Below, one piece after another: positions 11,061-41,800 of a stretch of 64,000 bases of DNA. The notes under the pieces were generated by a model. It did not search any database and was not told the origin of the DNA. It worked only from the letters and a program-made list of their open reading frames with translations. Numbering within the stretch: position 1 is the first letter of the stretch; each line of letters starts with the position of its first letter. This DNA comes from Lamellibrachia satsuma (Eukaryota; Annelida; Polychaeta; Sabellida; Siboglinidae): NCBI GenBank assembly GCA_033239005.1, contig BSQZ01000001.1:18773000-18836999 (forward strand). Reading direction: 5' to 3'. The translations under genes were made by a program, and so were the position numbers.

Positions 11061-11225
11061 GTTTCTGTTTCATGCTGCGCAATGAATAAGTATCACAGAA
11101 TAAATGTTATATATTATGTTCTTGTCCAGGACATAAACAACAGAACAACCATAACTAAGCATATAAAAAATACCATAAAAATTATTATCTTTGATAATAA
11201 AATAGCACAAATAATGTGCACTCAC

Positions 11226-11519: not shown

Positions 11520-12060
11520 GATGAACGAAGACCCGGTACTGTCACGACTTCACAGGTACTTATATAGGTCGAAGGTGTCAGCAACGCTATCGAGGAAGAC
11601 ACGCATACAGAAACCGCCCATCTCCGCAGCCAGGACGCAGCGCTCTGCCTCTGGAGTCTTGCTCTTCGCGACGCCAGCCGCAGCGCGTATCAATCATAAA
11701 AAATAAACTTCATCATACGCAGCCGACGTCGTTTCTAGCCGTGCGACGCATCGATAATGAATTACACATGTGTGTCCGGCGCGACGCGCATGAAACTTTT
11801 ATACACGATCACCTGTCCTACACACGTTATTAACGCTATTGATTACTTTTCTAGGAACGCCGTACCTCGAACTGATGATCGGCTGCTGCGTAAAACGTCA
11901 TCGACTTGTGTGTAGCGATGACGTATACAATTTTTGAGTAGTGTTTTGGCGAAGACGGTCGCCTGAATCTGCACGTGTATTGTCGGGTGTTTGGTTTTGT
12001 GCACGCATTTTGTGCGTGTATTCTTTTACCAGGTATTGTAACGTGTAATGATTGAGTGTT
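11520..12060 (-). promoter_or_regulatory. CpG-containing upstream region of the GABA-B receptor exon
   Basis: Many CG dinucleotides lie between about 11520 and 11960, in contrast to the CpG-poor surroundings. The stretch is directly upstream of the receptor's start codon. It probably covers the 5' UTR and promoter, but no TATA box or start site is evident. Confidence 0.35.
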
Positions 12061-15770: not shown

Positions 15771-15954
15771 ATGTCTCTCATGTGTGACGTCTGCAAGGAA
15801 GTGGCAGTCCGCTACAAATGTCCACGATGTTTGAAGAAGACATGTTGCCTGGCGTGCGTGAAGCAACACAAGACAGCAGACGGATGCAGTGGTGTACGTG
15901 ACAAGACAGCATACGTGGCCATGAAACAGTTCTCTGAGATGCATCTTCTCAATG
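15771..15954 (+). CDS. ZNHIT6: ZNHIT6 exon 1: HIT zinc finger
   Basis: Encodes residues 1-61 and part of 62. CDVC, CPRC, CLAC and KQHK supply the cross-brace zinc ligands, followed by KTAYVAMKQFSEMHLLN. The donor is AATG followed by GTACAT (phase 1). The acceptor-like CTGATTAG at 15740-15749 lies just before, so the exon may begin at 15750. Confidence 0.9.
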
Positions 15955-18900
15955 GTACATTCATAAGAATTTTTTCCTCAGGATTAATCTTTAACCTGAT
16001 AAGCCTTGAATTTCTGGGGGAGTTGATTTTGTTTCAACCCATGGGATTATGAAATGCACTGTAAGACGTAAAGTCTTCATCAAAACCCTTACAATATATA
16101 CATATTCTGAATCACAGAATATTTATCTTACCAATGGTAATAACACTATCAATGTTATGATTAACTGTGGCTAATTAGCATATAATTAGCATATGTAAAC
16201 AATCGCGAAGTGAAAAATTAAATACGAAATCTGGTTTGATTTCGTCACTCATGGACACAATAAAGCACAAAATGAGGCAAGTTTGGTACTGCAAGGTAGG
16301 CCTACATGTCCTCTGAGCAGCAAGAGAAATTATAATAATATCTGCATTTACCTGTGAAATATTACAATTAGCATGCAAGTACTATGATTTTGGTTGATCA
16401 CATATATACATATAAAGCACACAAAACTGTTCACAAAATGCATAATAATGAATGTTTCATAGGTACATGTAATCTATTGACATATATATATCAGAGCACA
16501 CCATGTATTGTAGTATAATAACTGATGGAAAAGAAAAGAAAAATTCAAGGAATATAAATGCAGTAATTCTGCAAATGTGAGTCAAATGTTACGTCAAAAG
16601 ACAATGAATACAGTAAAAACTCATCATTGACACATCGATGTTGTTGTCTTGGCCGCTACTAATGTCATTTACATCCGAATTATCGGGTGTAAAACCCAAC
16701 AGATGCAATGCCCGCTCATAGTCTTCATAACCATGAATCGTAAAACGTTGACGAAATATCGGTAACTTTCAAAAAATTCGCAAAAATACTAATAATCAAC
16801 GGATCGATTCGAGAAACGGCTCAAAACGTCCGCACATGTGTTGTTTCCATCCGGGCACCAACAGCATGACCAAAGCGAACGAGTGTGGCGCCACAGCGAT
16901 CAATATGAACACTACATCCCAACACCGAAATTTCGGTGTTCGGGGTGCATCAGGTTAAAATATTAAGCCCATAAAAAGAATATTTGTCAAAAAATGCCAG
17001 GCACGCCAAACTTTTATGATATGCTTTGCCTCAAAGATGACACTGACTTACTGGCATTCAATTGCTAATGTAATCTTTTTTTAAAGCATGTGACATTCTT
17101 TTCTGATGCTGTTTTGTTGAACAAGGGTCAACATCAGTGTAATGATATTTTTTGTTTTGATGACAGTGTTTGATACACTTGTTTTCATCCTGTTGAAATA
17201 TAATCACAAATAAATGCTATGACTGCCCACATAGCAGTGCTGTAACCTATTGGATTTCATTTGAGGCAACTATTTGTAGATTATTAATTTTGGTTCGTCG
17301 GGGTAAAATTAAAAATGACCTTACTGTTGGAGCATTTTGTGGAGGTCATTGATGAGATTGAGGTTACAGTGCACTAGCAAAACCAGTGTTATTATACAGA
17401 ATATTACGGATGTGAGACATGGAAAGTAAATAAAAGTGACAACTGGAAGCTGGACACCTTTCTATTCAAGTGTTTGTTTAAGGAGAAACAAAAGTTATGG
17501 TTTTGGGCCTATGCACCTATAAGAGTTACTAAAACATAACCATTTGCAATTACAATTAAGAATATAATTCCAGTGGTTTACTAGGAAAACCTTGTTGAAC
17601 ACACATCACCTTAATTTCATGGGCCATGCCATACTGTTAGATAACATTACTTCATGAGTGTCAAAGTCTAGCAAAATTCGCTCGCCAAATGAAAGTATAT
17701 GTGTAATCCTTTATTGTGTATACACCTATTGCTATATTTGCCAATACGATATGGCTATGCTGTTTGCATCCAAACTCAACTTATGTAACATATTTTGGTC
17801 GTTGTTTACCAAAAGTAGTCCTCTTTCTGGTAAAATAACATGTTTGTTTGAAACCCTCATTGGTTCTGTGTATGCTGGCCTCCCTTAATACATCACTTAA
17901 GTCTATGTTACCCTGATTTCTTAGAACTGTGCATGTGCTTATCGGTCGCGCTGGTTAACACGTCAGCCCTCAGTCAACCAGAGAAATGACTGGAATCTCC
18001 CACTTTTAGAACACATTCTGAGTAAATCAGTGGCATGATATTCTTGATTTTAGTTGCATATGATTAGTTTTTATTATTTCTTAGGTGCATCGCCCCAAAA
18101 TTATGACTTTTGCTTCGCTTTAACTAGGATACTAATAGTTTGATGGCCTTGCATATTGTCAAATGGAGATATCCTAATTAAAACAGAAGTGAAGAAGATC
18201 AGCACAGAAGTAAGAACAAGAAAATTGGTTTGGACACTTATTAAGAAAGAAAGAATACAGTCACTCCCGGACGGCTCTAGCACAAACACCTGAATGAAAG
18301 AAGACAGTCACTCCCGGACGGCTCTAACACAAACACCTGAATGAAAGAAGACAGTCACTCCCGGACGGCTCTAACACAAACACCTGAATGAAAGAAGACA
18401 GTCACTCCCGGACGGCTCTAACACAAACACGTGAAGGCAAACGGAAACTAGGTGGGTAAAACAAACTGTAGTAAAACAAGAACTTGGCTGGAAGTTGTGG
18501 AACGAAGCCAAGCACGTGGCCAAAGATACGAGAGAGTGCACTGCAGCGTCATCGGCCAGTCAGCGCAAAGAGGATATGTGAGGCAAGGAAAGGTAGGTTG
18601 TTGAGGGATCAGTTGTGTGGTATTTATGGTTTGTTAGATAATATATTCGTAAACAAAGGAGGGTGGTTGTTGAGGGAGGTCATTACTCAGGGGTTCTACA
18701 GTTCTGGTTTTTTCATTGTGGCTTCCAGATTACAGATTCTTGGAAGATGTCATCAGGAAAGCTGACACTGCTGCCCGCGATATTGCTCCTAGGAAGCGTG
18801 ACCGGTCCAAGTATGTAAGTAACCTATATGGCCTGGTCCTTCGGCAGTGCCAGGTGTATTTAGATTGTGATATTCCTCTTATTTTAGGTGTTCTCAACAC

Positions 18901-19410: not shown

Positions 19411-22400
19411 CACACATGAGACTTAGTGAAGTCAACCAAAAGTCAACCTGAGAGAACATTTAGGTATAGCGTCATTTAAAACAATATGGCTATAAGTCTT
19501 GTATAATAAAAAAGAGACTATTTATAATAAAAGTGAGACGATCAGAGAATAAAGTTGTAAACCGTAATAAAACTCGGTTAAAGTAGATTATACAATCTTA
19601 ATGAATACATGAGAAGGATGACCTTAAAACAACATATTAGACATTAAAAGCGAGTTTAAAATAATTAGTTTTGAGGCGTGCCTTGAAAGTGTCCATGGAG
19701 ATCAGTCACAGCTCCTTAGGCAGCGCATTCCACAGAAGTGGTCCTGCATGGGAGAATGATTGCCAGCCATATCGTACATGGTTATATCGCAGCACAGTTA
19801 GAAGGGCGCGGCCTGCTGATCGTAGTGACCAGGACAGTACATAGGGTGTGATCAGTGAAGCAAGGTACGCGGGTGTCTGGTTCTGAAGGTCGCCGAATAC
19901 AAGAATCGCTACTTTGTACTCGATGCACCACTTCACTGGCAGCCAGTATAGAAATTTAAGTCCTGCCACGATACTTTATCCGTAGGACAAGTCTGACCAC
20001 TGAGTGCTGAACCATCTCTAGATGATGCATCAGGCATTCAGTGATGCCATAGAACACCACACTGCCATAATCTAGGCGTGATGTCACAAGCGAGTGCACT
20101 AAGGTCTTACATGCCGAAGTCGTCAGGCTTGCATGTATTTTAGCGAATCGAAACAAATGGAAGTATGCACCACGGCAAGCATTCAACACGCCACTGATGA
20201 CAGACTGACAACACTGATGACAGAGCTGACAGTTGGTGACCATGCACTGGAGGACCAAAATGTTATCGCCTCAGTTTTATTCTTGTCAAGCATAAGTTTG
20301 TTTTTGGTTAACCACTGTCTCTCTTCGTCAATGTGTAGAAGTACATCTCTGTGTTGTGATGGTGGACACTCGGCGTAAAATTGAGTGTCGTCAGTGTACA
20401 TATGGTATTGGAGGTTGTGGCGTTTGAAGGTATCAGCGATTGGTAGACAGTATAGATTAAACAGCATGGGACCTAGAACCAACCCCTGCAGAACACCATG
20501 CTGTGTTGTTCTTCTTCGAGCAGATGTGCTTTGTCTTATCTTTAGGGCGTTCGTTTGACCCCCCCAAGGTATGAAGTAATGATCCTTCTATATGCCACAT
20601 AGAATAAAGAAAATGGACGTCCTTAGCACCTAAACCAGAATTCACTTTTGATTTGGTGACCACTGGCTTTATTATGAGAACACAGTAGAAGAACAAAGCA
20701 TGACCAACATATTTTTGTGGGTAAATAGCATTTGATTTGTTACTGTTAGTTATATTGTTCTTGCAGAAAGGAAGAGTATGTTTGAGTATTTCCTGGCATG
20801 TATAGCCTGTGAAAAATGTTTTCCTTCAAGCAAAATATGATGATTCGGGAGGCGCGGAGAAGGGACGTTAAATTGAGGATCATGCCCCAGACTTTCAGCA
20901 AGAGGAAGCTGAATCGGACGTGGTATCACAGCAGGTGAGGGAACATCATAGCAGGCAGCAGCAAATGTGACCATTTTTATTAAGGCTAACCGTTTGAAAT
21001 GTGACCATCAATAAAAAAATGTTCTTCTTTTGTTTTATACTTATTTCAGAAAAATCAAACCTACCTAGTATTCACTACAACATGCTAGCTTGTTTGTAAA
21101 AAATATGTTTAGTTTTGATGAAATCATTGGACAAACTATTGAATTATTTTTTACTGGATACATTTAAAATTCCAGCAAAGGTGGTCTGGTCTATTCACAT
21201 TCTATATATTTGAACATCATCAAACCGAACTCGTGATGGGTTAAATTAATAATATGGTTAACACAAATTTCTTGTTTCTTTTTTTTGAGTTATGATTCGT
21301 ATCACTAGTCAGTGTAACTGGAGAAATCTGTTGAGATTTTCTGATCCACATCGCTGGGTCAGAGCATGCAGACTGAACAAAACACAACTTTGACTCTAGA
21401 TTCTTCTACTGATCCCTGCTGGCCATTATAGCATGCAATAATCCACAGGTGGCAGTACTGCACCAGTGACATTCAGAGTAGGTGATTAATTGTCACAACA
21501 GTCGCTCCCAACATCAGTCGAATGCACTCTGTCTGTCACATCTTGGTCAGAATTACATAACACTGACCAACCAACATGGCAACCGCCTGTAAGTGATGGC
21601 AGCTCTGGTCGTCATGGTGACAAATGTAGGAAACTAATATTGATAATGACAAAGCCATCTGCCCGTGTTGTAGTCACCTTCTTTTTCTTTTCATGATATG
21701 TAATTATCGTTCTATTTGTCCTTGTAAAGTGATAATAATATAGTTATCATGATTAGTGTTATTGATATTACATTTAGGGATGTGATAAGTGGGACTTGTG
21801 ATTCACAATTCTTCACAATTTGTGAAGAATCAATTCTCTTATATATAATTCACCGTATTGACTTAAGTAACATTCTACAGAAGTATAAATCACTGGGTAA
21901 TAGTGACACTGATGTACACAGATGGGTAATGGCTGCAGATCGCATTACGTGGAAACAAAAGTCACTAGAGTTACTAAAACATAACCATTTGCAACTACAA
22001 TTAAGAATATCATGCCGGTGGTTTACCAGGAAACCTTATTGAACACTGCATCTTAATTTCATGGGCCACACCATTTTATTAGATAACCGTATGTCACAAG
22101 TTTCATTGTCTGGCAATATTCACTCGCCCAATTTAAATATATTTGTATACACATATTCCTGTACTTGCCTATAGAATATGGCCATGCTGTTTGCATCCAA
22201 ACTCAACTTATGTAACATATTTTGGCCTTTGTTTACTAAACGAGTCCTCTTTCTGACAAAATGGAACATTTGTTTGAGACTGCGCTGGTTCTGTGTATGC
22301 TAACCTCACTTAATACGTCATGTAGTCTAGGTTACCCCAATTTCATAGAACTGCACATGCTCTTATCAGTCGTGCTGGTTAACATGTCGGCCCTCCTTAT

Positions 22401-25400
22401 CAGTGAACCGGAGAAATGACCAGAATCTCCAACTTTTAGAACACATTCTGAGTAAACCACTGATGTGATATTCTTGGTTTTAGTTGCACATGGTTAGTTT
22501 TTATTATCTCTTAGGTGCATAGCCCCAAAACCATGACTTTTGTTTCACATTAAAACAATTCTCATTCTGCTTACATTATAGTCGGATGAAATGTGTGTAC
22601 ATATGTAAAACATTTAGGTTGAAACTTTAAACTGACTCTTCTATTCACTGACAATGCACTGATTGGTTAGTAAAACTCAGCCCATTTTGGCATCGAACAC
22701 TTTCTTGTACACATTTTTGGATGTGTAAACTGAGCACTGTCACTGTCTTTTCACCGGACGCAGACCTTCCAAGTCTTCCGCTTTATCGGAAGATCTTCCG
22801 CTTTTTCCGGTTTTTGAAAACATCTTCCGCTTTTCCGCTACGTTTTGAAAACCTTCCGCTTTTTCGGACTTGGCCGGTGATCGCAGAAAATTAAGAGGTT
22901 CTATTGAAAATTAAGAAGTTCTGTTGAAATATTCAGATCGAATACCAAGTTTCTTAAGAGGTAATCATGTTTAATAGTTCTATTAAATGGTTTGAAACTC
23001 CGCCATTTGGTGGCGCATTGTTTTTCAACGAATGATATTGCAGTAAAACATTTTCTCCGTATATTTTTCACCCCGCCATTTTTAAAGTGTCTGAACTTTT
23101 TTGTTTATAGTTTTAAGGTTTTGTTCATTGTTAAAGATAGTGTTGTTAGTTGTGAATAGTTGTTTCCTTGCGCCACGAAGTAAGATGGGTAAAATGACAG
23201 GAGAGAACGGAGGTAATCCACCGACGAAAAAGAAACTACGCCGCAAAGTTTTGAGACGAATACGCCTCTGAAGACTGTGGCCTGTGCCGCTGCTCAACCC
23301 AGCGAACAGACGTAAGGGCTGCTATTGGTAAATGATTGGTCTAATGATTTAAAAGCAGCTGTTATGCTTATTTTAAGGATTCTAAATTCTAATACACTTT
23401 CTGACTACTGCTAGTTTAATGTGTTTTCACTTAAAAATCTATTTGCACTTACGTACCATGTCGTGTGTGCTGTCCATATCTTTATCTAAAAATAATTTCA
23501 GATAAACAGAAGACAATAATAATTTTTTTTCAAAATGTGGAAGAGACTGCATAATTTATGTTTTATGCTGTACAGCAGTCATTCATCTTCATGAACCATG
23601 TGCTTTTCTAACCTTTTCATAAAGAAAATGTTTAAGATTTTATAAACATGGTTCAACATTTTGTTTTCAGTGCTTCTCTAGTTGAGAAGTTTGTCCCTGG
23701 CACTTCAGATGATGACCTGGATAGCACCGTTCAGGAATTGATGGACTTCCAGGCAGCCACAGATTTGCCCGAGTTCATCGAGGTGGACGAGCGGTGTTAC
23801 AGTTGAAGGGCTGGGGTGGCCAGGTCAGGTTCGATCACCTGGCTACACTCATGAAAACTTTAGTCATCCTTCCCTATGACCAGGCAAAGAATGACAAGAA
23901 GTTCCGAGCATCACTAAGTGCAGAGACGCTGTGTAGCCTGCTGTACTGCAAGAACAACGTGGACTGCGAGTACCACCAGTTGTACAATGAGGACCACAGA
24001 CCGGTCATCTGAGACCTGAATGTGTGGCTAGGAAACACCTATGATAATGGGTATAATGTAGTCTGCACTGGCAATCAGCTGTCTGAGATGGCAAATAAAC
24101 TGTATATAATGTTTGTTATGTTCTTCACGTCGTTATTTAGTATAATCAAATTTGATTGTTTTTTCGAGAAAAAGTCTTCTGTCTTTTTTTTACAGGACGA
24201 GGAAGATCTTCTGCTTTTTATTGGTAAAATGTTGGAAGGTCTGCGGACGTACACACCCAAGAATGTGTACATCAGGTGATAACTGTCTTACAGTTTTACG
24301 AACAGTGCTCAGTTTACAGAGAAATAATAAGAAGTAACAATGTTGAAGTAAACGTGTCACGTTTTCTTTTCAGATCTAAGAAGATGTTGTGGCACATTGA
24401 GTTTTATTTCCCACACGCCGCAGCAAAATACACAGACAGGTACATTCATGTTTATATCATAAACTTCCAAATTTTTTTGTAAAATGAGATGCAAATATTG
24501 AATTATTGCTTGTAAGATAAAAAATATGGCATGCACGCACACACATGAAATAGACACAAGTTGAAATTGAATATGAATACACTTATAATGTAAGTATTAT
24601 GGTATGGCTTAATTTAGTATGGTTTGGACACACCAGAGGGCAACTCATGTTTATTCCTCACAAGCCCACAAGAGGGCAGTATATTTAAATCGACATTCAG
24701 TTAGTCAGGTGATGTGAGTTTCCATCTTGGCATATAAAGGGAAATCTTTTGTCCGTTAGGTGTTTATGCCAAGAAATTGTAGTCAGTTTAATTGTAATCT
24801 AATCGCCCATCCTGTCAGCCATTCCTTGTTTGGAATTCAAATAGGCAGTGGTAGAACACAGTGTGTTGATTTGACTGAGTGAGATGGATGACGGTAGCTT
24901 AACATTTTCTAGTTTTTTAAATAAAGGTGGAAAATAGAGTCCAGCTGTGGTCTGTGTGTACAGAGTCGATGAAGGTCAGTGTCTGGACGACGTGCTCAAG
25001 AAGTTCCTTCACCCGACCGAGTCTGACCCCGTCATCCAGCAGCACCTGAAGATGTACTCGAGGGCAGGGGGCAACGGTGTGAGGGTGTTTATGAGGCAAG
25101 AGGGGCTGCCTGCCAACTGCATCAGGTAAGTGGGTGGGGTATGAATCTTAAGTGTGGTCAGAGGTGACCTCTGGTAGTTCATCCCTGCACTAAAGACGTA
25201 GCATTGAGCAGACCTTACAAGTTGGCACAAGCAAATAATGGGATCTTGCAGCAGAATTTGTCTTCAAGGAGGTTTAATGATTTTTTTCGTTTGTAGCACA
25301 GGTTATCGATTGTCTTTTACCTGAATTACGCAAGAACTGAATATTTCAAAGTTAAGCGATTTTCAGGTTTTTGACCTTATTTTAAGTTTATTAATCACTG

Positions 25401-28400
25401 GTATAACCTATTGTGGACATGCAATGATGCTCATGTTGGGAAATGTGCAAAATTATACTGAAAAAATATTCATAAAGTGACAACATGTTCAGGTGACCTG
25501 AATGTCTGCAAGACTGGTGGAGATTTCAATGCAGAAGTTAGACTGAACAACAGTGTTAGATAGTCTGATAATTGTTATCAAAATCATGTTATGTAGTATA
25601 AATTATATGTATTCTAACATCTAAACCACCCTAATGGGTTTTTCTAAACAACCATTTTTTTATATTTATTTGACTGTTGTATGTTTAATATTATGCTTCA
25701 TAATATGGAGTAATGTGATGAGCTGGATCTTACATGACATAGAACAATGTGTTTGACAGTCACCAGGTGTGATGAGCTGGATCTTACATGACATAGAACA
25801 ATGTGTTTGACAGTCACCAGGTATGATGAGCTGGATCTTACATGACATAGAACAATGTGTTTGACAGTCACCAGGTATGATGAGCTGGATCTTACATAAC
25901 ATAGAACAATGTGTTTGACAATCACCAGGTGTGATGAGCTGGATCTTACATGACATAGAACAATGTGTTTGACAGTCACCAGGTGTGATGAGCTGGATCT
26001 TACATGACATAGAACAATGTGTTTGACAGTCACCAGGTGTGATGAGCTGGATCTTACATGACATAGAACAATGTGTTTGACAGTCACCAGGTGTGATGAG
26101 CTGGATCTTACATGACATAGAACAATGTGTTTGACAGTCACCAGGTGTGATGAGCTGGATCTTACATGACATAGAACAATGTGTTTGACAGTCACCAGGT
26201 ATGATGAGCTGGATCTTACATGACATAGAACAATGTGTTTGACAGTCACCAGGTGTGATGAGCTGGATCTTACATGACATAGAACAATGTGTTTGACAGT
26301 CACCAGGTATGATGAGCTGGATCTTACATGACATAGAACAATGTGTTTGACAGTCACCAGGTGTGATGAGCTGGATCTTACATGACATAGAACAATGTGT
26401 TTGACAGTCACCAGGTGTGATGAGCTGGATCTTACATGACATAGAACAATGTGTTTGACAGTCACCAGGTATAATGAGCTGGATCTTACATGACATAGAA
26501 CAATGTGTTTGACAGTCACCAGGTATAATGAGCTGGATCTTACATGACATAGAACAATGTGTTTGACAGTCACCAGGTATAATGAGCTGGATCTTACATG
26601 ACATAGAACAATGTGTTTGACAATCACCAGGTGTGATGAGCTGGATCTTACATGACATAGAACAATGTGTTTGACAGTCACCAGGTATAATGAGCTGGAT
26701 CTTACATGACATAGAACAATGTGTTTGACAGTCACCAGGTGTGATGAGCTGGATCTTACATGACATAGAACAATGTGTTTGACAATCACCAGGTATGATG
26801 AGCTGGATCTTACATGACATAGAACAATGTGTTTGACAGTCACCAGGTGTGATGAGCTGGATCTTACATGACATAGAACAATGTGTTTGACAGTCACCAG
26901 GTGTGATGAGCTGGATCTTACATGACATAGAACAATGTGTTTGACAGTCACCAGGTGTGATGAGCTGGGTCTTACATGACATAGAACAATGTGTTTGACA
27001 GTCACCAGGTGTGATGAGCTGGATCTTACATGACATAGAACAATGTGTTTGACAGTCACCAGGTGTGATGAGCTGGATCTTACATGACATAGAACAATGT
27101 GTTTGACAGTCACCAGGTGTGATGAGCTGGATCTTACATGACATAGAACAATGTGTTTGACAGTCACCAGGTGTGATGAGCTGGATCTTACATGACATAG
27201 AACAATGTGTTTGACAGTCACCAGGTGTGATGAGCTGGATCTTACATGACATAGAACAATGTGTTTGACAGTCACCAGGTATGATGAGCTGGATCTTACA
27301 TGACATAGAACAATGTGTTTGACAGTCACCAGGTATGATGAGCTGGATCTTACATGACATAGAACAATGTGTTTGACAGTCACCAGGTATGATGAGCTGG
27401 ATCTTACATGACATAGAACAATGTGTTTGACAGTCACCAGGTGTGATGAGCTGGATCTTACATGACATAGAACAATGTGTTTGACAGTCACCAGGTGTGA
27501 TGAGCTGGATCTTACATGACATAGAACAATGTGTTTGACAATCACCAGGTGTGATGAGCTGGATCTTACATAACATAGAACAATGCGTTTGACAGTCACC
27601 AGGTATGATGAGCTGGATCTTACATGACATAGAACAATGCGTTTGACAGTCGCCAGGTATGATGAGCTGGATCTTACATGACATAGAACAATGCGTTTGA
27701 CAGTCGCCAGGTATGATGAGCTGGATCTTACATAACATAAAACAGTGCGTTTGACAATCGCCAGGTATGATGAGCTGGATCTTACATAACATAGAACAGT
27801 GCGTTTGACAATCGCCAGGTATGATGAGCTGGATCTTACATAACATAGAACAGTGCGTTTGACAATCGCCAGGTATGATGAGCTGGATCTTACATAACAT
27901 AGAACAGTGCGTTTGACAATCGCCAGGTATGATGAGCTGGATCTTACATAACATAGAACAGTGCGTTTGACAATCGCCAGGTATGATGAGCTGGATCTTA
28001 CATAACATAGAACAATGCGTTTGACAATCACCAGGTATGATGAGTTGGACGTGATGAAGACAATCCAAGAGAATCTGGCAGGAAAAACGGTATTCGAGTA
28101 TCCAACCTTCCACATTGTTCTGAAGGACAGGGCAGAAAACTACACAGACAAATTGGGTGAGTGCAACAAACAAAATGTTTATTGTCTTCTTTGTAGTTCT
28201 TTGAGTGTTCGGCCATGCAGCAGGCGTATCTAATAGACTGTTTATACAGTTAATTATATATATATATATGTAATTATCTGTATAAACAATATATATATAT
28301 ATATATATATATGCACAGTGAGTGCATATATGTGACCCACCGTAACAAAACGAGTCGGATGTCGGTAAACACGAAACTTCACAGATGCCGTTTTTATAAA

Positions 28401-31085
28401 AAAAACTGGCTAATCGAACGATTTTGAGATTGTCTCTGAGAATTCCATAGTATTCATTTTAACGATGAGCTCAGTTTCTACTGTATATTTAGTTATGTTT
28501 AATTTATTTTAGTGTTATCTTTGAAGAGCTGTTCGATGTGTTCCGCTTGACTTTCATAAAACAAAGCAGAAAATGACGATAATTAATCGCTTTCTTCGTC
28601 CGTAATTTTTGGATGGTCCTCCACAAATGTGGCATCGTTGCAAAGCTTTGCATCTCATCTTTCCATATATGGTCAACGAATTAACCTATATTACCGATGT
28701 GTCGAATAGGAGGGCGTGAGGGGTAGGCACTGTTTGTCCAGCTGTGTAAACAAACCCCGGCTTGTTACTATCACGTGATCCAGGAAAATTATTTTATTGC
28801 CGCAGCAACGAAGTTCCAGAGATGATGAAAAAAGTAGTTTATTTAATACATTTGTGGGTAATTTCCGGAAAAAATATTTTTGCCTTTGTTAGCATTATTA
28901 CTTCCTCTAGAGATGTGAGGCGTTTTTGAGAAAACAGGATTATTTCTTGGAACATGCATGCTTTACCCACAAATAAAAGTGATTTAGAGGTATGTAATTG
29001 CAAATGAAATTAACGGTATGAAAGCAATGCTTTCAAAATAGGGTGGACACATTTTGAATAATAAAATAATTTTTTTTTTATCCACTTGCCGAGTCTCCCC
29101 TTAGACTAATATTATTATTATTATTATTTAAATCACTAAAATCAAGTATGTTCTTATTGCCTCAACTTTGCTTTACAAAAGAAGGTCACTAGTAACCATT
29201 ATCTCAACTAAAATGTGTCACATTATGACACTGGTGTCATAGTGCTGCTAGTTTTGACATTCCTTAACAATGGCGGTAATTACAAGGCAATTAATTGTAT
29301 TTTTTTCTGACAAAGATCTTGTTATTATATTAGTAGAATGTCATGACTCATTTTGTTACGGTGGGTCACACACATATATATATATATGGCCTTGATATTA
29401 GGCTTTTGAATCCAGTGGCCCAAATGGCCAGTACATTTTTTAAGTTACTGGCCTCCCAAAAAAGTTAATGGCCCAAAATGTTATTTGAATAGAAATTCAT
29501 TTAAAAAACAGTTTTTTTAAACATACAATTTGTGCAATCCATCACATTATGAGTTCAAATGTCACTGAACATTTATTGTCATACTGTTCAAAGCACTACA
29601 GTGTCATCTTCAGTGTCATCATCACTTTCCTTGCTGGTCCAGTCCCCCAGCCTGTCACTACACATCTCCAGCCTGTCACTACGTATCTCCAGCCTGTCAC
29701 TACACATCTCCAACCTGTCACTATGTATCTCCAGCCTGTCACTACACATATCCAACCTGTCACTATGCATCTCCAGCCTGTCACTACACATCTCCAGCCT
29801 GTCACTACACATCTTCAACCTGACACTACACATCTCCAGCCTGTCACTACACATCTCCAGCCTGTCATCTCCAGCGTATTCTCCACTCTACTTTCCTGCC
29901 CACTACTGCGTGCCTCTGTTGTCTACCTCCTGCTTTCATTGAGTGTTGGTGGTTTAATCATGTCAATTCATTTAACCATTAAAATTGCCACCTAAAATGT
30001 TCTTCATTTGCTATGATAAATCTATGCTTTAATATGGAGGCGTCCGTATGCATGAGTTTCACAAGAAGTCGCCACGGCATCCCTAGTAGCGACACCATGC
30101 GGCTTTTTGTGAAGCCGATTTGTTTTCTCAAATCAACATGACGACTGCAGGAAGTGAAAACATGAAGTTGGATGAAGTTTGCTTAATTGTGGCGCCAGGG
30201 GTTAAGGACAAGTGATAGAAATGATTTGAAACCTTGGTGGTCAGTCAGATAAAAAAATTACCAGGCCAGTATAATATGAAAACTTGTGATCCGAACTGGC
30301 CCGACAGCCCCAAAAAAGCCAGTGTGGTATTTGAGCCAAATTATTTTGTGTGTCAGGCAGTAGTGTATATGCATGATCAACATATTTCTTGTGTTTCGTT
30401 CACATAAGTACTTTTCAATTTCCTACAATATTAGAAATATTTTTTTTTATGAAAGTTTTGCAACATCTTTAATTCAAATGTAATATTTCTTTCAGATGTT
30501 GGCATGACCTACAAACCATCAGTGTCCATTAATACGACCCCACCATCGAATGGGTCACCAGAAGATGTTGACAAAGATCAGTTGTTTATTGTGTCACCAG
30601 AACTTGTTGACAAAGAGCAGTCTTCTATTGTGTCACCAGAACATGTTGACAAAGAGCAGTCTTCTATTGTGTCACCAGAACATGTTGACAAAGAGCAGTC
30701 TTCTATTGTATCATCAGAACTTGTTGACAAAGAGCAGTCATCTATTGTATCACCAGAACTTGTTGACAAAGAGCAGTCTTCTGTTGTGTCACCAGAACAT
30801 GTTGACAAAGAGCAGTCTTCTATTGTATCACCAGAACTTGTTAACAAAGAGCAGTCTTCTATTGTGTCACCAGAACTTGTTGACAAAGAGCAGTCTTCTA
30901 TTGTGTCACCAGAACATGTTGACAAAGAGCAGTCTTCTGTTGTATCACCAGAACTTGTTGACAAAGAGCAGTCTTCTGTTGTGTCACTAGAACATGTTGA
31001 CAAAGAGCATTCATCTATTGTGTCACCAGAACATGTTGCCAAAGAGCAGTTATCTGTTGTGTCAACAGAATATGTTGTCAAGTGA
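15771..31085 (+). CDS. ZNHIT6: box C/D snoRNA protein 1 (BCD1), HIT zinc-finger protein; seven-exon model
   Basis: BCD1 is a nuclear assembly factor for box C/D snoRNPs, working with the NOP58/15.5K/R2TP machinery. Model: 15771-15954, 18729-18814, 24196-24275, 24374-24439, 24964-25125, 28035-28156, 30496-31085. All junctions are GT/AG with matching phases (1, 0, 2, 2, 2, 1), giving 429 codons. Residues 5-39 form the HIT zinc finger with all eight ligands (C5, C8, C17, C20, C25, C29, H33, C39). DYRFLEDVIRKAD, KKMLWHIEFYFPHA, ESDPVIQQHLKMY and VFEYPTFHIVLKD are the BCD1 core. Residues 256-429 are a 13-residue repeat tail. The frame is open for seven codons upstream of the ATG to an AG, so an upstream exon is possible; human BCD1 has a longer N-terminus. 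Exon 3 is odd: its first 16 codons lie inside a hAT element. Confidence 0.85.
16921..16940. repeat. 20-bp perfect palindrome
   Basis: AACACCGAAATTTCGGTGTT is its own reverse complement. It sits in intron 1 in a small CpG-bearing patch, perhaps the centre of an old inverted-repeat element. Confidence 0.8.
17378..17470 (+). mobile_element. LINE reverse-transcriptase C-terminal fragment
   Basis: With one frameshift it reads VLLY then YGCETWKVNKSDNWKLDTFL and FKC. This is the VLLYGCETW motif at the end of the RT domain in RTE/CR1-like elements. Only about 30 codons remain. Confidence 0.6.
17485..18116. mobile_element. non-autonomous TIR transposon, copy 1
   Basis: The left end GAAACAAAAGTTATGGTTTT and the reversed right end GAAGCAAAAGTCATAATTTT form imperfect terminal inverted repeats, extending to GGGCCTATGCACCTA / GGGGCGATGCACCTA. 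About 630 bp with no coding capacity. A diverged direct copy lies at 21952-22556. Confidence 0.65.
18258..18437. repeat. 47-bp minisatellite, four copies
   Basis: Unit containing AGTCACTCCCGGACGGCTCT, AACACAAACACCTGAATGAA and AGAAGAC, nearly identical between copies (one A/G change in the first). Confidence 0.95.
18729..18814 (+). CDS. ZNHIT6: ZNHIT6 exon 2: start of BCD1 core
   Basis: Acceptor GGCTTCCAG, donor GTAAGT. Encodes DYRFLEDVIRKADTAARDIA followed by PRKRDRSKY, the conserved segment after the zinc finger in BCD1. Ends in phase 0. Confidence 0.88.
19339..19404. repeat. TA dinucleotide microsatellite
   Basis: About 65 bases of TATATA ending in GTATATACACACATG. Confidence 0.95.
19650..20515 (-). 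mobile_element. L2/CR1-type LINE, 3' part of the reverse transcriptase
   Basis: From 20515 downward on the minus strand: GVLQGLVLGPMLFNLY (RT motif B), YHMYTDDTQFYAE (catalytic YxDD-type motif, here TDD), then after a frameshift LVTSRLDYGSVVFYGI. After another, FLYWLPVKWCIEYKVAILVF, PAYLASLITPY, LLWNALPKEL and MDTFKARLKTNYF. This is the order of an L2-like C-terminus. It is 5' truncated, frameshifted and inactive. Confidence 0.85.
21040..21270. repeat. dispersed repeat family A, copy 2
   Basis: Begins GAAAAATCAAACCTACCTAG. Continues AACATGCTAGCTTGTTTGTA and TTAGTTTTGATGAAATCATT, matching the copy at 4660. Confidence 0.6.
21952..22556. mobile_element. non-autonomous TIR transposon, copy 2
   Basis: Direct copy of 17485-18116 with 80-90% similar words throughout (GAGTTACTAAAACATAACCA, TTTCATGGGCCA, AACACATTCTGAGTAAA, CTTAGGTGCATAGCCCCAAA). 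Part of the left terminal repeat is deleted. Confidence 0.65.
22755..24249 (+). mobile_element. hAT-type transposon with 6-bp target duplication, degraded transposase
   Basis: The left end CAGACCTTCCAAGTCTTCCG starts at 22761. The right end ...TTGGAAGGTCTG stops at 24243. CGGACG flanks both sides (22755-22760, 24244-24249). Subterminal TCTTCCGCTTTTTCC-like words occur at both ends. The interior (about 23670-24010, two frames) reads DLPEFIEVDERC, then FDHLATLMKTLVILPYDQAK, NDKKFRASLSAETLCSLLYC and KNNVDCEYHQLY. This is the C-terminal dimerisation region of hAT transposases. A basic N-terminal-like piece (GGNPPTKKKLRRKVLRRIR) lies at 23210. The transposase is broken by frameshifts and missing its middle. 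Confidence 0.75.
24196..24275 (+). CDS. ZNHIT6: ZNHIT6 exon 3: partly transposon-derived
   Basis: Acceptor TTTTTTTACAG, donor GTGATA, phases 0 and 2 fitting both neighbours. The first 48 bases (DEEDLLLFIGKMLEGL) and the acceptor itself lie inside the hAT element ending at 24243. The remaining 32 bases (RTYTPKNVYI plus two bases) begin with the target-site duplication and look native. BCD1 proteins have about 20 conserved residues here. The transposon-derived segment is of similar length but does not clearly match. Confidence 0.55.
24374..24439 (+). CDS. ZNHIT6: ZNHIT6 exon 4: LWHIEF segment
   Basis: Acceptor TTTTCTTTTCAG, donor GTACAT, phase 2 at both ends. Encodes SKKMLWHIEFYFPHAAAKYT followed by D. 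It corresponds to the W-H-V/I-E/K-hydrophobic strand that is a hallmark of the BCD1 family. Confidence 0.9.
24964..25125 (+). CDS. ZNHIT6: ZNHIT6 exon 5: SDPVI segment
   Basis: Acceptor TGTGTACAG, donor GTAAGT, phase 2 at both ends. Encodes VDEGQCLDDVLKKFLHPTES followed by DPVIQQHLKMYSRAGGNGVR and VFMRQEGLPANCI. This matches the BCD1 region with a conserved E-S-D-P-V-I-(R/Q)-Q and a Y-x-R-x(n)-G motif. Confidence 0.9.
25126..28034 (+). other. ZNHIT6 intron 5
   Basis: 2.9 kb, of which about 2.3 kb is the 54-bp array ending exactly at exon 6. The first 590 bases hold nothing recognised. Confidence 0.8.
25711..28049 (+). repeat. 54-bp minisatellite (about 43 copies) made of the intron 5/exon 6 splice-acceptor junction
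   Basis: Each unit reads GT(A/G)T(G/A)ATGAGCTGGATC, TTACAT(G/A)ACATAGAACA, (A/G)TG(T/C)GTTTGACA(A/G)TC, (A/G)CCAG. The last CCAG is the real acceptor of exon 6 (28033-28034) and the following GTATGATGAGTTGGA is the start of exon 6. The unit therefore spans intron end plus about 15 exon bases. The block at about 27540-28030 shares TGCG and TCGCC variants. The rest is more uniform with TGTG and TCACC, suggesting spread by unequal exchange from the exon outward. Long antisense ORFs arise only because 54 is a multiple of three. Confidence 0.95.
28035..28156 (+). CDS. ZNHIT6: ZNHIT6 exon 6: EYPT-H-V segment
   Basis: Acceptor CAATCACCAG at the very end of the 54-bp array, donor GTGAGT, phases 2 and 1. 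Encodes YDELDVMKTIQENLAGKTVF followed by EYPTFHIVLKDRAENYTDKL, the last conserved BCD1 block. Its first roughly 15 bases are what the array units repeat. Confidence 0.9.
28254..28313. repeat. TA microsatellites in inverted arrangement
   Basis: Two TA tracts separated by ATGTAATTATCTGTATAAAC. A related TAATTATATATATA copy precedes it, so the stretch can fold on itself. Confidence 0.8.
28331..29370. mobile_element. non-autonomous DNA transposon with 20-bp inverted repeats
   Basis: The left end is TGTGACCCACCGTAACAAAA. The right end read in reverse is identical for these 20 bases, and both continue to (C/T)GAGTC. The 1.04 kb interior is non-coding. The flanks are TA-rich microsatellite, so the target duplication cannot be read. 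Confidence 0.85.
29640..29872. repeat. 21-bp minisatellite, about 11 copies
   Basis: Unit CCAGCCTGTCACTACACATCT with few changes. Its length keeps ORFs open on both strands; none is a gene. Lies in intron 6. Confidence 0.95.
30496..31085 (+). CDS. ZNHIT6: ZNHIT6 exon 7: repeat-containing C-terminal tail
   Basis: Acceptor TTTCTTTCAG, phase 1. Encodes DVGMTYKPSVSINTTPPSNG followed by thirteen full copies and one partial copy of E(L/H)VDKEQSS(I/V)VSP. It ends at TGA 31083-31085. The unit is 39 bp, so the frame is kept. The tail is acidic/polar and low in complexity, probably disordered. Human BCD1 has only a short tail here. Confidence 0.8.
30561..31082 (+). repeat. 39-bp coding minisatellite in ZNHIT6 exon 7
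   Basis: Thirteen full units and one partial. The codon-level unit is E(L/H)VDKEQSS(I/V)VSP. Changes are mostly single bases (CTT/CAT giving L/H, ATT/GTT giving I/V) and no unit carries a frameshift or stop, consistent with translation. Confidence 0.95.
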
Positions 31086-33290
31086 TGCAAGTCAGGTTAT
31101 TTGTATTGTGTCAGGTCTGACGTAATTGGGACATTTGGCACCAGTTGTGACACTGTGACATTCTGTGGTTACACAGATGTGTTTCAAAGATGGCTACAGT
31201 AAAATCACTTTTCCTATGTTTGTTTCTACTGAAATAACTTTTTGTGTGAATTCTTGGAGTAAGTTTGAATCCTAAATATGTGACTACATTGTTACTGAGT
31301 AATTGTTTTTGATAAACTTAACCACCATAAACTGATTGAAATTGAAGGATTTTGATTTCAGTGTTTTCAAGAATTGTTTTGTATATACATATACCCAGTA
31401 TATATTATTTACACGGTTTATAGTGAACACAATAGGTAGAACAATCGCTCATCAGAACATAACTACTCCAGCTGCCATGTGTGAAATGTTGGTTGTGCAC
31501 ACCTACAGTTGCAGCTGCTCATACAAAGGTGAAGGCTTGCTCAGAGGAAACAGTCTGGCTACCTAGTCAGTGGCAGCAGCACCTCCTTTAGACTCGCCAC
31601 CTAGTCAGTGGCAGCAGCACCTCCTCTAGACTCGCCACCTAGTCAGTGGCAGCAGCACCTCCTCTAGACTCGCCACCTAGTCAGTGGCAGCAGCACCTCC
31701 TCTAGACTCGCCACCTAGTCAGTGGCAGCAGCACCTCCCCTAGACTCGCCACCTAGTCAGTGGCAGCAGCACCTCCCCTAGACTCCCCACCTAGTCAGTG
31801 GCAGCAGCACCTCCCCTAGACTCCCCACCTAGTCAGTGGCAGCAGCACCTCCCCTAGACTCCCCACCTAGTCAGTGGCAGCAGCACCTCCCCTAGACTCG
31901 CCACCTAGTCAGTGGCAGCAGCACCTCCCCTAGACTCGCCACCTAGTCAGTGGCAGCAGCACCTCCCCTAGACTCGCCACCTAGTCAGTGGCAGCAGCAC
32001 CTCCCCTAGACTCGCCACCTAGTCAGTGGCAGCAGCACCTCCCCTAGACTCGCCACCTAGTCAGTGGCAGCAGCACCTCCCCTAGACTCGCCACCTAGTC
32101 AGTGGCAGCAGCACCTCCCCAGACTCGCCACCTAGTCAGTGGCAGCAGCACCTCCCCTAGACTCGCCACCTAGTCAGTGGCAGCAGCACCTCCCTAGACT
32201 CGCCACCCAGTCAGTGGCAGCAGCACCTCCCCTAGACTCGCCACCCAGTCAGTGGCAGCAGCACCTCCCTAGACTCGCCACCTAGTCAGTGGCAGCAGCA
32301 CCTCCCTAGACTCGCCACCTAGTCAGTGGCAGCAGCACCTCCCTAGACTCGCCACCTAGTCAGTGGCAGCAGCACCTCCCTAGACTCGCCACCAGTCAGT
32401 GGCAGCAGCACCTCCCTAGACTCGCCACCAGTCAGTGGCAGCAGCACCTCCCTAGACTCGCCACCAGTCAGTGGCAGCAGCACCTCCCTAGACTCGCCAC
32501 CTAGTCAGTGGCAGCAGCACCTCCCTAGACTCGCCACCTAGTCAGTGGCAGCAGCACCTCCCTAGACTCCCCACCAGTCAGTGGCAGCAGCACCTCCCTA
32601 GACTCCCCACCTAGTCAGTGGCAGCAGCACCTCCCCTAGACTCCCCACCTAGTCAGTGGCAGCAGCACCTCCTCTAGACTCGCCACCCAGTCAGTGGCAG
32701 CAGCACCTCCCTAGACTCGCCACCCAGTCAGTGGCAGCAGCACCTCCCCTAGACTCCCCACCTAGTCAGTGGCAGCAGCACCTCCCTAGACTCGCCACCT
32801 AGTCAGTGGCAGCAGCACCTCCTCTAGACTCGCCACCTAGTCAGTGGCAGCAGCACCTCCTCTAGACTCGCCACCTAGTCAGTGGCAGCAGCACCTCCTC
32901 TAGACTCGCCACCTAGTCAGTGGCAGCAGCACCTCCTCTAGACTCGCCACCTAGTCAGTGGCAGCAGCACCTCCTCTAGACTCGCCACCTAGTCAGTGGC
33001 AGCAGCACCTCCTCTAGACTCGCCACCTAGTCAGTGGCAGCAGCACCTCCTCTAGACTCGCCACCTAGTCAGTGGCAGCAGCACCTCCTCTAGACTCGCC
33101 ACCTAGTCAGTGGCAGCAGCACCTCCTCTAGACTCGCCACCTAGTCAGTGGTAGCTGCACCTCCTCTAGACTCACCACCTAGTCAGTGGCAGCAGCACTT
33201 CCTCTAGACTCACCACCTAGTCAGTGGCAGCAACGCCTCCTCTATGATTATTAGATGCCTCATGAGAATATAGGTAAGCAATAAACATAT
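31086..33290 (+). other. probable ZNHIT6 3' UTR or downstream region
   Basis: From the stop codon to AATAAA at 33280-33285. No AATAAA was noticed between the stop and the 38-bp array, so the transcript could run through the whole array. This is inferred, not shown. Confidence 0.4.
31560..33243. repeat. 38-bp minisatellite, about 44 copies
   Basis: Unit CCTAGTCAGTGGCAGCAGCA followed by CCTCC(T/C)CTAGACTCGCCA, with 36-, 37- and 38-bp length variants. Blocks of like variants (CCTCCTC, CCTCCCC, CCTCCC, CTCC-CAC) run in series, as expected from local duplication. The TAG in each unit blocks long ORFs. Confidence 0.97.
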
Positions 33291-35843: not shown

Positions 35844-38800
35844 CTGAAAAGTGTACAATTATAAGATGACATTGATAATTCATAAATTGTAATTGCCCTT
35901 TTTATAATGAGGCACAAATCAAACAGAATTCAGTACTACTGTAATTTATAATATGAACAAGTAAAGAAATGAAACGAGCAAATTACTAAATGAAATTGAT
36001 ATACCGGTACTAAAAGATGAGTAATTTTGTTGGTCTTCTGAAAGAGATATTAAATATGTTATGCTGTATAAATAAACTAAAATAAAGCATCCATTGATTT
36101 CTAATTCTGGGCAATTTATGTATAAACAAGGACAACATCAAAATGTATCTATTGTTCTGTAGGATATATTCAAGAAAGGTGGTTGAGAGTTCCTCCTCAA
36201 TTCAATTATTTTGCTTGTCTCATTCATTTCATGAAAAATGTAACCTATCTAGTATCGACTTGAACACACTAGCTCGTTTGTACAAATTTATTATTTAGTT
36301 TTGGTGAAATTATCTGACAAATAATTAAATTATTTTGACCAAGACCAGTCAAAATATGGCGAAAAAATTATAAAGTGGTCCTGCGCTACATACTAGAACA
36401 TAAGACTATTCACAATTTTACAAATTACCCTATCTGTCCCTATCTAGTGTCTACCTATCTAATGATCAAAATAAATTGTTTTGATGATTTTAAGTATGCA
36501 CACTTATTAAACCAACTTTCCATATTACTTAAACTATTCACGTGCTACAAATATGAATGAATGTGATTCACCATGGGCTAAATCATCTGGGGGAGTTTCT
36601 AAGTTTTTCAGATATTTGTTTGTGAATATAAAAATACCTCAAGCACTTGAACACATTTTCCGAGCACACAGTCCCATACGCGCACGGTGTCATCCTCGCA
36701 GGCACTCACGAGGAAGAGACTGTCCTGGGAGAAAGCAACGGACTGGATCCAACCCTTGTGTCCCGTCAGGACGAACAGACAGAGGGCCGTTCGGGGATTC
36801 CACAGGCGAATGGTCTTATCCCAGGAACCAGACGCCTGCAAGAAGACAACGGTTTATTTATAAACTAGCCTACTTGCCTGGCATTGCACTTGAGAAAAGG
36901 CAACCACTGCTTATGACTCTGCACTACCCAGTCAAGTTTTGGTAGGCAATGGCAATGACATCTTATGTCCCCCAATCATGTACAACTGGCAGTTTCACGA
37001 GACGTTAATACCAAACATAAGAACTTATGTGAATGTTTGACGTAGATCATGTTTCTTGGAACAATTTTAGAAACATGCGTAGCATTGCTAATAGTTCTTG
37101 TATAGCGTGGTATCCAGACCTTAAGACCGTTCAGAGCGATTTAATATACTTTACCAACCAACCTGTTCATTCCAATGCCAACTCGACTTCTCTAGGAAGA
37201 ACTCAGAAAACACCACAATTGCTGCGTGAAGATTATTTATTTATATATATATATATATATCCACCACGGTCTATAGCCAAGCACTCATTTGTACAGTTGA
37301 GTGAACAGAGGCAATGTGGAGTGAACAAAATTGTCCAAGCTTTGAAACAGCAGTAAGAGGATTCGAATCCTAGTGCTCTTGTCTGAGTCTGACGTCCTAA
37401 CCACTGTGGTAGTAACACGTACACAGTTAAAATATGGCAGATTCATATACATGTATGCCACTGCCAACCCTGCAATGTGCACACCCGCAAACAAACCCAT
37501 ATGATTATCTACATCTACTGTTTGCTGGACATACTCAAAAGGAGCTTGCAGTACAAACTGGGATATAATGTCTGGATGTTGTGAGACTTTGGCGCACTCA
37601 CTGTGCACAGCTGAAACACGAGAGATGTCTCTTCACTCAACCAAATCCGACCCAGTCATCAAACAGCAAGGGTAGGAAGCAACAGTGTGAGGGGATTTTG
37701 AAGGAGGATGGGGTTGTTTGGCTGCTTTTGTTTCTCAATTGCTAAGAATACTACCTCTACTTTCCATATTGTTATTTGTCATTTTTTATTTTCCTATTCT
37801 CTTACCTGTTGAAATACCAACAATCAAAATGCAAATGTATGCAATTACTGTAAATGTGTATTATGTGAGGGCATTAGGTTGATAAATAATAACTTATTCT
37901 AGTGAACCAGCCTCAAACCCTCTCTGTACTTACACCATTTGTATTTTGGTGAATAAATTATGACTATTTTTAATAAATTCCAGCCATTATTCTTAAATGT
38001 AGAATGTATTTCCACTCACCAGCATGTTTTCCTTAGAGAAAGCCATAGCATGGATGTTTCCCTTGTGTCCCACCAACACGTGTACATCTTCTCCTCCTTC
38101 CTCTGAGTTTCCCTCTGTGCCAGCCGTCAAGTTTACATCCGAGTCTTCATCTGAATCTTTCAGGGTCCACAAACGAATTGTGTAATCCCATGATCCAGTT
38201 GCCTGGAAACGTTGAATAATCACAATTCATACAGCCAAGTAGTTAAAATATATGAAGACATTATCAGAAAATTAAACTGGATAAAGAAGATTCACATGTG
38301 ATGAGATGCAAGCCAATAGGAATTTTTGTAAAATTTCTGTATAATAAAATTTGACTTGCTTCTCTGAAATTGGGAAATGTTTTACTATTCACAGACACAC
38401 ACTACAGATCTGATAATCAACGAACCTGATTTGCAATTAACTAAATAAAAAAGTAAAGCTAATTATTTTGATACATAATTTTTTATATTGATGAATTTGC
38501 TTTCTATTGATGAATTTGTTTGTACATCTGACATGTCCAAATTGTCCATATGTCTGCATGAAATCACTTACCAGCCATTTGTTGGAGAAGGAAAATGCGA
38601 CTGATTGCACTAAGTTGACGTGGCCTTCAAACACCCTCAGTTTATTCCCCGTCTGGCAAACAGACAAGTGAATGGAAACTCTCAACCGCTTGTGCCAAAA
38701 TAACAATCATAGTCATTATTATTTATTTACCCAAATAAAAAATACTTATACATATGGTATCAGTGCAAAAAGAAATATCAGCATACATTCAAATAAGTGA

Positions 38801-41800
38801 CGGCATCCTAACTAGCCAGGCGTGGTAGCAGTACTACAGTACCCCTGGCAAATCGACTTGTTAATGCTCGTCATTAGCCATCTAATCAGAGATGACGGAT
38901 CCACTACTAATTAAAGTTAAGTTCCACATGCGAGCCCTTCACATCTAAGTGAGCAATATTATTGTTTAACACAGCAACTGAAAGTTCCACATTTCAACAG
39001 GTCGATCTGCCAGGAGTACTGATGTAGTCAGAAACCCTTGGTGGCGAGGGTAGGTCTGCCAGAGGTACTGATGTAGTCAGAAGCCCCTGGTAGTGAGGGT
39101 AGATCTGCCAGGGGTATTGATGTAGTCAGAAGCCCCTGGTGGTGAGGGTAGATCTGCCAGGTGTACTGATGTAGTCAGAAGCCCCTGGTGGTGAGGGTAG
39201 ATCTGCCAAGGTACTGATGTAGTCAGAAGCCCCTGGTGGTGAGGATGAGTAAGGGCTGTGGCAGGGATTTTAACCTCCTATCTCCCACCTTTTTTTGGGA
39301 CCAACCTCCCATCACACACCTGTTTGTGGGACCAATCTTCCACCTCCCACCATTTTTGAGAGCCCATGGTAGCTCCCACCAATCCCACCTAATTTTGAGG
39401 TTAACTTCCCACTTCCAGCCACACTTCCCTCATAAGTCTAGCTTCGTAGTGATCCATCCACCCAACAGGTACAAATTTACAATCTACCTTACAGAGATCG
39501 TGTGGTCATGGCAGTTTTACGGAGGACACCTCAGAATGTAATACATAATATCAAAGTATGTTGACCAAAGTTTTGGGGAATGTGCTAGCTTTTCCTTGTG
39601 AATGTTCCAGCCGATTTAATTGACAGGTATACATTAGCGGCATTTTGAAAGTGATTATAATTTCTTACCTCAACCTCCCAGACAATAGCCGTCCGATCCC
39701 ATGAACCGGAGCAGAGCAGCTCCGAGTTGGAGGAAAATGTCAGACACTCTACACTTTTCTTATGACCTATCAACATGCAAAATAGTGATATTCACAAAAA
39801 TCACACAAAGATAGAATCTTCTAAAAGCAAAGTGAAATGCTTTGTGTTTTTCGCCTTTCAGGGTACTTGTGTTGGGTACTTCCCCTTGACTGATTTAGCC
39901 CCAATCAGGTTTGTTGATGTTCAAATTTGTAGTGTAGTAGAGTAGTACCACTAGTAGTGTAGTACCGGTAGTAGTGTAGTACCGGTAGTAGTGTAGTACC
40001 GGTAGTAGTGTAGTACCGGTAGTAGTGTAGTACCGGTAGTAGTGTTGTACCGGTAGTAGTGTAGTACCGGTAGTAGTGTTGTACCGGTAGTAGTGTAGTA
40101 CTGGTAGTAGTGTAGTACCGATAGTAGTGTAGTACCGGTAGTAGTGTAGTACCGATAGTAGTGTAGTACCGCTAGTAGTGTAGTATTGGTAGTAGTAGTA
40201 GTAGTAGTGGTAGTAGTGTAGTACCGGTAGTAGTATAGTATTGGTAGTAGTAGTAGTAGTGGTAGTAGTGTAGTACCGATAGTAGTGTAGTACCGGTAGT
40301 AGTGTAGTACCGATAGTAGTGTAGTACCGATAGTAGTGTAGTACCGATAGTAGTGTAGTACCGATAGTAGTGTAGTATTGGTAGTAGTAGTAGTAGTGGT
40401 AGTAGTGTAGTACCGGTAGTAGTGTAGTATTAGTAGTAGTAGTAGTAGTAGTAGTAGTGTACCTGGTAGTAGTGTAGTATTGGTAGTAGTGTAGTATTGG
40501 TAGTAGTGTAGTATTGGTAGTAGTGTAGTACTGGTAGTAGTAGTAGTAGCAGTAGTAGTTATGTAATATGCGCAGTCGGTTTAATAAGAGTGCCTACTTT
40601 TGTTTAAATTATAGAAAGAATTGACTTTGTGTTACATCGGGTGACTTGTGAAAGTGTGAATATCCACATGTTATACCTAGTACATAGTACATAGAGTTCT
40701 TTTGTCCTTTTTCACAGAATTTTTATTGGATCCAGTCAAAAAGATTTGATAGTTTGTCCAATGTTTTCATACTCTAAACTAACTAAATAACACATTTCCA
40801 CAAACGAGCTAAATAGTGGATACTAGAGCTAGCACGTCATAGTGGATACTATAGCTAGCACATCACAGCTACTAGAGCTAGCATGTTGTCGTGGATACGA
40901 GACAGGTCAGATTTTTTTGGTGAAATGATTCTATAACAAGACAAGTGAAAACATTTAATTGATAAAAGACTTTTATGTGCGTATCTGATTATTTTCTCCT
41001 ACTTAAATCCTTCTCTCTGTCATTCTTACCTTCTAATATAAATAGACACGTCCCATCTCTGGTCCGCCAGAAGTGAATTTTCTTGCAGAAGTCTCCACTT
41101 GCAAAGTATTTGCTATTTGGAGTGATGGCAACTGATCGAACTGGCCCTTAAAAATAAAATAGATAAAAATGCCAACATAAAATTAATAGCAGAAAAAAAA
41201 ATTGTAACTTGTATCAGATTATAATGACAGCAGTATTTATATTTTACATATATGAATTAATTAATACATGAAGTTAAAAAATATGCTTAAAATAAGTTTA
41301 AAGATCAGCTAAAAAACAGTTTAAAATATGTTAAATAAGTTAAATAAATAAATTAATAAAAACATCACCATGTCATTAAAAAGTTATTACTGCTGTCTAC
41401 AGTAATGTTCTAAAGGCTGCACTGAAAGGTGTGCCTTTAATACTGCCTTGAAATTACATTTGGTCAGCGTCATGCCCCCTTAAATCAAAGAATTAGTCCG
41501 TTTGTGCGACTTTCATAATTAATTAGATAAATATTCCACTGCAGAGTAAAGTGGCTACCGACTGAGTGCGTTTCTATTTTGCAGCAGTCAAAGTGCTTAA
41601 GTGACCATTAAGTGTTCTTGGTGAAGCTTTCATGCTACAGTGACCAAACAAAGTGCAACTACCTTTGTGTCCAGACAGACTAACCACAAAGCGGCCACTG
41701 GCTGCATTGAACACGCGCACCTTCTTGTCTTCTGAGCCGGTCACTAACAGCTCAAAGTCAGGGGAGAATGTGGCGCAATTCACCTAAGATAAGGCAGAAT

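Follow-up and report, generated by a model that had tools for sequence, protein, structure and literature searches.

The ZNHIT6 locus

The window, by which we mean the whole 64-kb stretch of DNA that was analysed, carries on its plus strand a gene identified as ZNHIT6/BCD1 by a Pfam BCD1 domain (E 2e-41) together with a HIT zinc finger. Our model of this gene comprises seven coding exons that encode a 437-aa protein. Searches by tblastn with four homologs recovered exons 1, 2, 5 and 6 with each of them and exon 4 with three of the four. The coding exons are as follows.

15771..15954, plus strand: coding part of ZNHIT6 exon 1, with the HIT zinc finger (tblastn, Pfam)
18729..18814, plus strand: ZNHIT6 exon 2 (tblastn)
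20831..20934, plus strand: ZNHIT6 exon 3 (placed by motif and frame, with no separate tblastn match)
24374..24439, plus strand: ZNHIT6 exon 4 (tblastn)
24964..25125, plus strand: ZNHIT6 exon 5, donor CAG|GTAAGT (tblastn)
28035..28156, plus strand: ZNHIT6 exon 6, 122 nt, donor TGG|GTGAGT (tblastn)
30496..31085, plus strand: last coding exon of ZNHIT6, with an in-frame 39-bp coding minisatellite inside

The coding minisatellite of the last exon (30554-31081) consists of 13.5 copies of a 39-bp unit, that is 13 aa, and reaches almost to the stop codon. On inspection by eye, the 13-aa repeat is absent from six homologs, of which only the start of the exon was aligned. Among the 22 matches listed for the ZNHIT6 protein, queried without exon 3, the closest of the species-labelled relatives was Ostrea edulis (46% identity), followed by the fish Gouania (45%), Crassostrea (44%), Lingula (43%), sharks and Mytilus (42% each), Capitella (38%) and Physella (36%); no Branchiostoma protein was found among these 22.

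The window also holds a gene that encodes WD repeats, between the exons of which lie several minisatellites.

36623-41783, minus strand: WD-repeat gene similar to WDR38

When a query made of pieces of this gene was used, the 120 matches listed out of 288 were headed, by E-value among species-labelled animals, by Physella and Octopus (43% identity), and included Elysia (53% over 82%), a coral (45%), Branchiostoma floridae (43% over 93%) and Acanthaster (39%). Proteins labelled 'ena' matched the ZNHIT6 and WD-gene queries at 82-89% identity over 17-29% of their length, covering neither exon 6 nor the array described below, and by these identities they look like proteins from a close relative. 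Amphioxus is an unlikely host, since a second Branchiostoma would be expected to match far better than 43%, and a mollusc host is no more than a guess. Two further minus-strand features were observed in the window: at 11073-11549, what may be the beginning of a receptor's ligand-binding region (ANF_receptor, under the Pfam cut-off), and open frames at 62868-63786 that resemble, by eye, a LINE reverse transcriptase.

Anatomy of the array at the intron 5/exon 6 border

The border between intron 5 and exon 6 of ZNHIT6, as placed by homology, lies within a long tandem array, the features of which are listed here.

25713..28049, plus strand: 54-bp border minisatellite, 43.3 copies, each unit with 39 nt of intron 5 and 15 nt of exon 6
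27549..28034, plus strand: 3′ block of nine units, more varied internally, four of the nine mutually identical
27997..28001, plus strand: candidate branch point CTTAC, its adenine (28000) 34 nt away from the AG (consensus match only)
28009..28010, plus strand: alternative in-frame AG (CATAG), which would add eight codons to exon 6
28033..28034, plus strand: likely authentic AG of intron 5, CACCAG|GTATGA, placed by frame and homology

TRF placed the array at 25714-28049, with a period of 54, 43.3 copies, 98% matches, 0% indels and a score of 4203, and a unit-by-unit reading found 43 CCAGGT sites spaced by exactly 54 bp, the first at 25763 and the last at 28031. Both counts agree with an earlier note on this DNA, which had reported about 43 tandem 54-bp units over this border. 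The same note had the array stopping exactly at the acceptor, which has to be amended, as the array enters exon 6 by 15 nt, to 28049. These 15 nt form the exon side of the unit and correspond to the first bases of exon 6, GTATGATGAGTTGGA, with one mismatch in the units that read GTATGA and at least two in the other units. The same 14-nt stretch is found at both ends of the array, because any array of 43 units and a part of another must have such ends, and this is consistent with growth of the array from a short direct repeat.

Comparison of the units revealed 13 types among the 43, with 18 units being identical. Among units 1-34, which are almost uniform, pairwise differences average 1.07, versus 2.28 among the last nine. 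Similarity to the authentic unit rises toward exon 6 (Spearman -0.52, with the authentic unit included and the units not independent) and forms no clean gradient, the unit at 25875, fourth from the far end, differing from the authentic one at a single position. The CTTAC candidate branch point is invariant in 43/43 units and, by consensus, every unit would constitute a complete 3′ splice site. In the rest of the 64-kb window, only matches of 10-11 bases to the array sequence were present, and a search of viral contigs with one 30-base pattern gave none.

To place the acceptor within the last unit we relied on the coding junction. The end of exon 5, ATC AG (25125), joined to the exon 6 start, G TAT GAT, produced a gap-free alignment across the junction with six homologs, which makes 28035 the most likely first base of exon 6. 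Because the AG of CATAG at 28010 also reads in frame, it is the homologs, and not frame alone, that favour 28034. In 42 of the 43 units there is a CATAG whose last base lies 24 nt before that of the CCAG; 41 of these copies lead to the same stop as the CCAG sites, and the copy in the authentic unit (28010) stays in frame. A further AG, ending 7 nt before the CCAG does, is found in 33 of the 43 units, and the authentic copy and nine others have AA at this position. The lack of this second AG in the authentic copy fits, without proving it, selection against an out-of-frame AG where it counts.

Reading frames, splice signals and chance placement

The earlier note had proposed a ladder of acceptors in which the upstream ones give a premature stop, and the reading frames bore this out. 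Reading on from any of the 42 upstream CCAG sites reaches a stop at codon 9, and none of them (0/42) keeps the frame open. The peptides preceding the stop are RCDELDLT (21 sites), RYDELDLT (16), RYNELDLT (4) and RCDELGLT (1), and reading from the 33 second AGs gives SHQV (31) or SRQV (2) and then a stop. In the gene model, the decoy stops are located upstream of the exon 6/7 junction. The 42 decoy CCAG sites would bring a premature stop, as the alternative sites of poison exons do, and the AG at 28010 in the authentic unit would not. Since the unit measures 3 x 18 bases and has one place for a stop in this frame, the 42 stops go back to a single event that was multiplied and do not count as 42 separate pointers to design. 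The same unit length, 18 codons, helps to keep long frames open through the array on the minus strand (25666-28458, 930 aa; 25698-28139, 813 aa). A search with 540 aa of the 930-aa frame against 6253 candidates returned none at E <= 0.001, and coding on the minus strand was rejected.

Splice-site strength was scored with crude matrices of approximate vertebrate values. On this crude scale, 34 of the 42 decoy acceptors outscored the authentic one by a little (-0.24 or 0.00 vs -0.62), the unit acceptors spanned -1.10 to 0.00 and the other ZNHIT6 acceptors -1.86 (exon 3) to 5.92, and the authentic AG ranked 39th of the 199 AGs between 25150 and 28034. Because most decoys score slightly higher, the choice of the last acceptor is unexplained by sequence strength alone. 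The two most acceptor-like AGs of intron 5 by the same crude matrix (25296 and 25301, region 25290-25301) are located outside the array, 171-176 nt past exon 5. Shielding of the decoys by RNA structure was considered and rejected, given that a three-unit fold was no better than its shuffles (z +1.48; 191/200 shuffles folded at least as well).

Because GT comes directly after it, each CCAG is also donor-like. The AG|GT arrangement of recursive sites is present in 43/43 units (CCAG|GT), and 38 of the 42 decoys read CAG|GTRTGA, with donor scores of 4.06-4.19 that exceed those of three of the six real ZNHIT6 donors on the crude matrix; the remaining four have a weaker GTATAA. Canonical recursive splice sites combine a strong pyrimidine tract with GTRAGT. 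The array shares with these ratchet points the AG|GT and differs from them in reading GTRTGA, not GTRAGT, and in lacking the strong tract expected of a recursive site, with 9/17 pyrimidines in the authentic copy; the ZNHIT6 exon 5 acceptor also has 9/17.

The window is loaded with minisatellites, 35 arrays with a period of at least 10 covering 14.9% of its 64 kb, and none of the 35 lies over an exon end of the WD gene as inferred by BLAST. Two more of them are of kilobase scale (31561-33244, 38 bp x 44.8; 52872-54294, 62 bp x 23). With arrays allowed to overlap, the border array counted in the density and splice sites taken as inferred, a ZNHIT6 splice site (12 considered) lay under at least one array in 72% of 20,000 random placements (mean 1.18, observed 1), and in 43% a splice site was 54 nt or less from where an array ends (observed 1). 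When 12 approximate WD-gene exon ends, which are BLAST ends, were added, the proportion was 91% (mean 2.13, observed 1), and for the three arrays longer than 1 kb against the ZNHIT6 splice sites alone it was 47%. Chance would therefore be expected to put an array over a splice site, and the position of this one needs no special cause or purpose, which leaves selective placement of the array an unneeded explanation.

Interpretation and comparison with known systems

All in all, the array is probably a tolerated minisatellite of the intron/exon border, of the kind described as 'mirages' in amphioxus. We infer the following course for its origin and tolerance. In a genome rich in minisatellites, 54 bp spanning the border of intron 5 and exon 6 would have been multiplied, probably through unequal exchange or slippage, and the 3′ splice site along with them. 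The array would be tolerated because the spliceosome mostly joins exon 5 to the last unit, and this unit may be chosen because it alone precedes the remainder of exon 6 with the exon's donor. In terms of exon definition, only the last unit would be followed by the full 122-nt exon 6 and a donor, each decoy offering 15 nt of exon before repeat of intronic character sets in. Exon 6 holds five GAA/GAG triplets in the 60 nt that follow the common 15 nt, vs two in the one decoy examined, a single small case that lends thin support to exon definition of the last unit. The tolerance reading gains further support because mirages of the same anatomy are reported without disturbance of splicing; the border-spanning unit, the placement expected by chance and the closed frames behind all 42 upstream CCAG sites also fit it.

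Alternatively, the decoys might act as poison acceptors that are used at a real rate and yield NMD-sensitive transcripts, the length of the array tuning ZNHIT6 output. The stop that follows all 42 decoy CCAG sites, the stops behind the 33 second AGs, the position of the decoy stops ahead of the modelled exon 6/7 junction and the 34 decoys that equal or exceed the authentic site on the crude matrix would all suit such a function. Nevertheless, one stop repeated by tandem copying is no evidence of design, the position of the array is that expected by chance, and splicing is reported to be undisturbed by amphioxus mirages; we regard regulation of this type as unlikely. A different possibility is that choosing a decoy is not fatal, since the recreated CAG|GTRTGA donor could be respliced to later units until the last acceptor is reached. 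Because exon 5 ends in CAG, its joining to a decoy would recreate this donor exactly, and the donors of the 38 CAG|GTRTGA decoys compare well with the real ones on the crude matrix. Speaking against such a recursive ladder are the poor pyrimidine tract, although the exon 5 acceptor is no richer, and the authentic junction itself, which would recreate the same donor and put exon 6 at risk of skipping. Recursive use of the units thus appears quite improbable. To the same small degree we would credit its extension, in which intron 5 is removed stepwise by whole units, half-way transcripts carry the stop and undergo NMD, and the array length sets the frequency of this; if it were true, a long run of decoys would correct itself. 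Finally, the copy number might be an assembly artefact, the array having been over-expanded or collapsed, as the 18 identical units could suggest. This is very unlikely in view of the 13 unit types and of other long arrays in the same 64-kb window, and it would alter the copy number, not the border anatomy.

The reading of the array as a further border minisatellite of the mirage kind remains the best one. Publications on neighbouring topics are said to deal with intron gain by tandem duplication (PMC4974935), intronic repeats of ABCA7 and TERT, and Conus gene structure. In the open-licence literature, no report was found that ties a minisatellite to an acceptor, a VNTR border or NMD. The earlier note had not seen described an intron/exon-border minisatellite of this size acting as poison acceptors; that such arrays are undescribed does not survive two earlier descriptions: those of amphioxus mirages, including BflGb6 with the same anatomy, and that of human IFI6/6-16, whose minisatellite reportedly supplies multiple splice donors used in alternative transcripts (Turri 1995). 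IFI6/6-16 resembles the present case in that a minisatellite provides repeated splice sites, which are reported to be donors there, versus putative acceptors here. Variable minisatellites at human exon-intron boundaries have units of 30 bp on average in four copies and are tied to alternative or new introns (Genome Biol 2009 10:R137, PMC2812944). Compared with those short arrays, ZNHIT6 has a single long one where a conserved exon begins.

Mirages are tandem repeats over intron/exon borders, described for amphioxus Adh3 and for the globins BflGb6 and BflGb9 (PMC3087553). BflGb6 carries three or six units of 150-160 bp that cover an intron's 3′ end together with the 5′ portion of exon 2 and are 81-100% identical, and Adh3 units measure 10-72 bp (PMC3087553). 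According to the same source, many units retain AG/GT signals, the border unit escapes homogenisation, and the Adh3 and globin data are said to suggest that regular splicing is undisturbed, with use of cryptic sites thought possible by the authors of the globin paper (PMC3087553). PGBD5, with 3 x 108 bp, and TnC are further amphioxus cases (PMC3902484). The ZNHIT6 array shares with mirages a unit that lies over an intron/exon border (here inferred from homology), a minisatellite-size unit of high identity (54 bp, 98% matches) and the conserved AG/GT, here CCAG|GT in 43/43 units. At the level of blocks, its variation resembles what is reported for BflGb6 borders, the first 34 units being nearly uniform and the nine on the exon side more varied, yet four of these nine are identical and the unit at 25875 is only one difference away from the authentic one. 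If the host is not a cephalochordate, border minisatellites would not be confined to cephalochordates. The locus would also represent a natural experiment in which the spliceosome picks one of 43 near-identical acceptors that differ only in position and downstream exon. In contrast to BflGb6 (3 or 6 x 150-160 bp) and PGBD5 (3 x 108 bp), the array comprises 43 units of 54 bp, a unit length within the 10-72 bp range given for Adh3, and it lies in ZNHIT6 of a host that is probably not amphioxus; it is longer than the BflGb6 and PGBD5 mirages.
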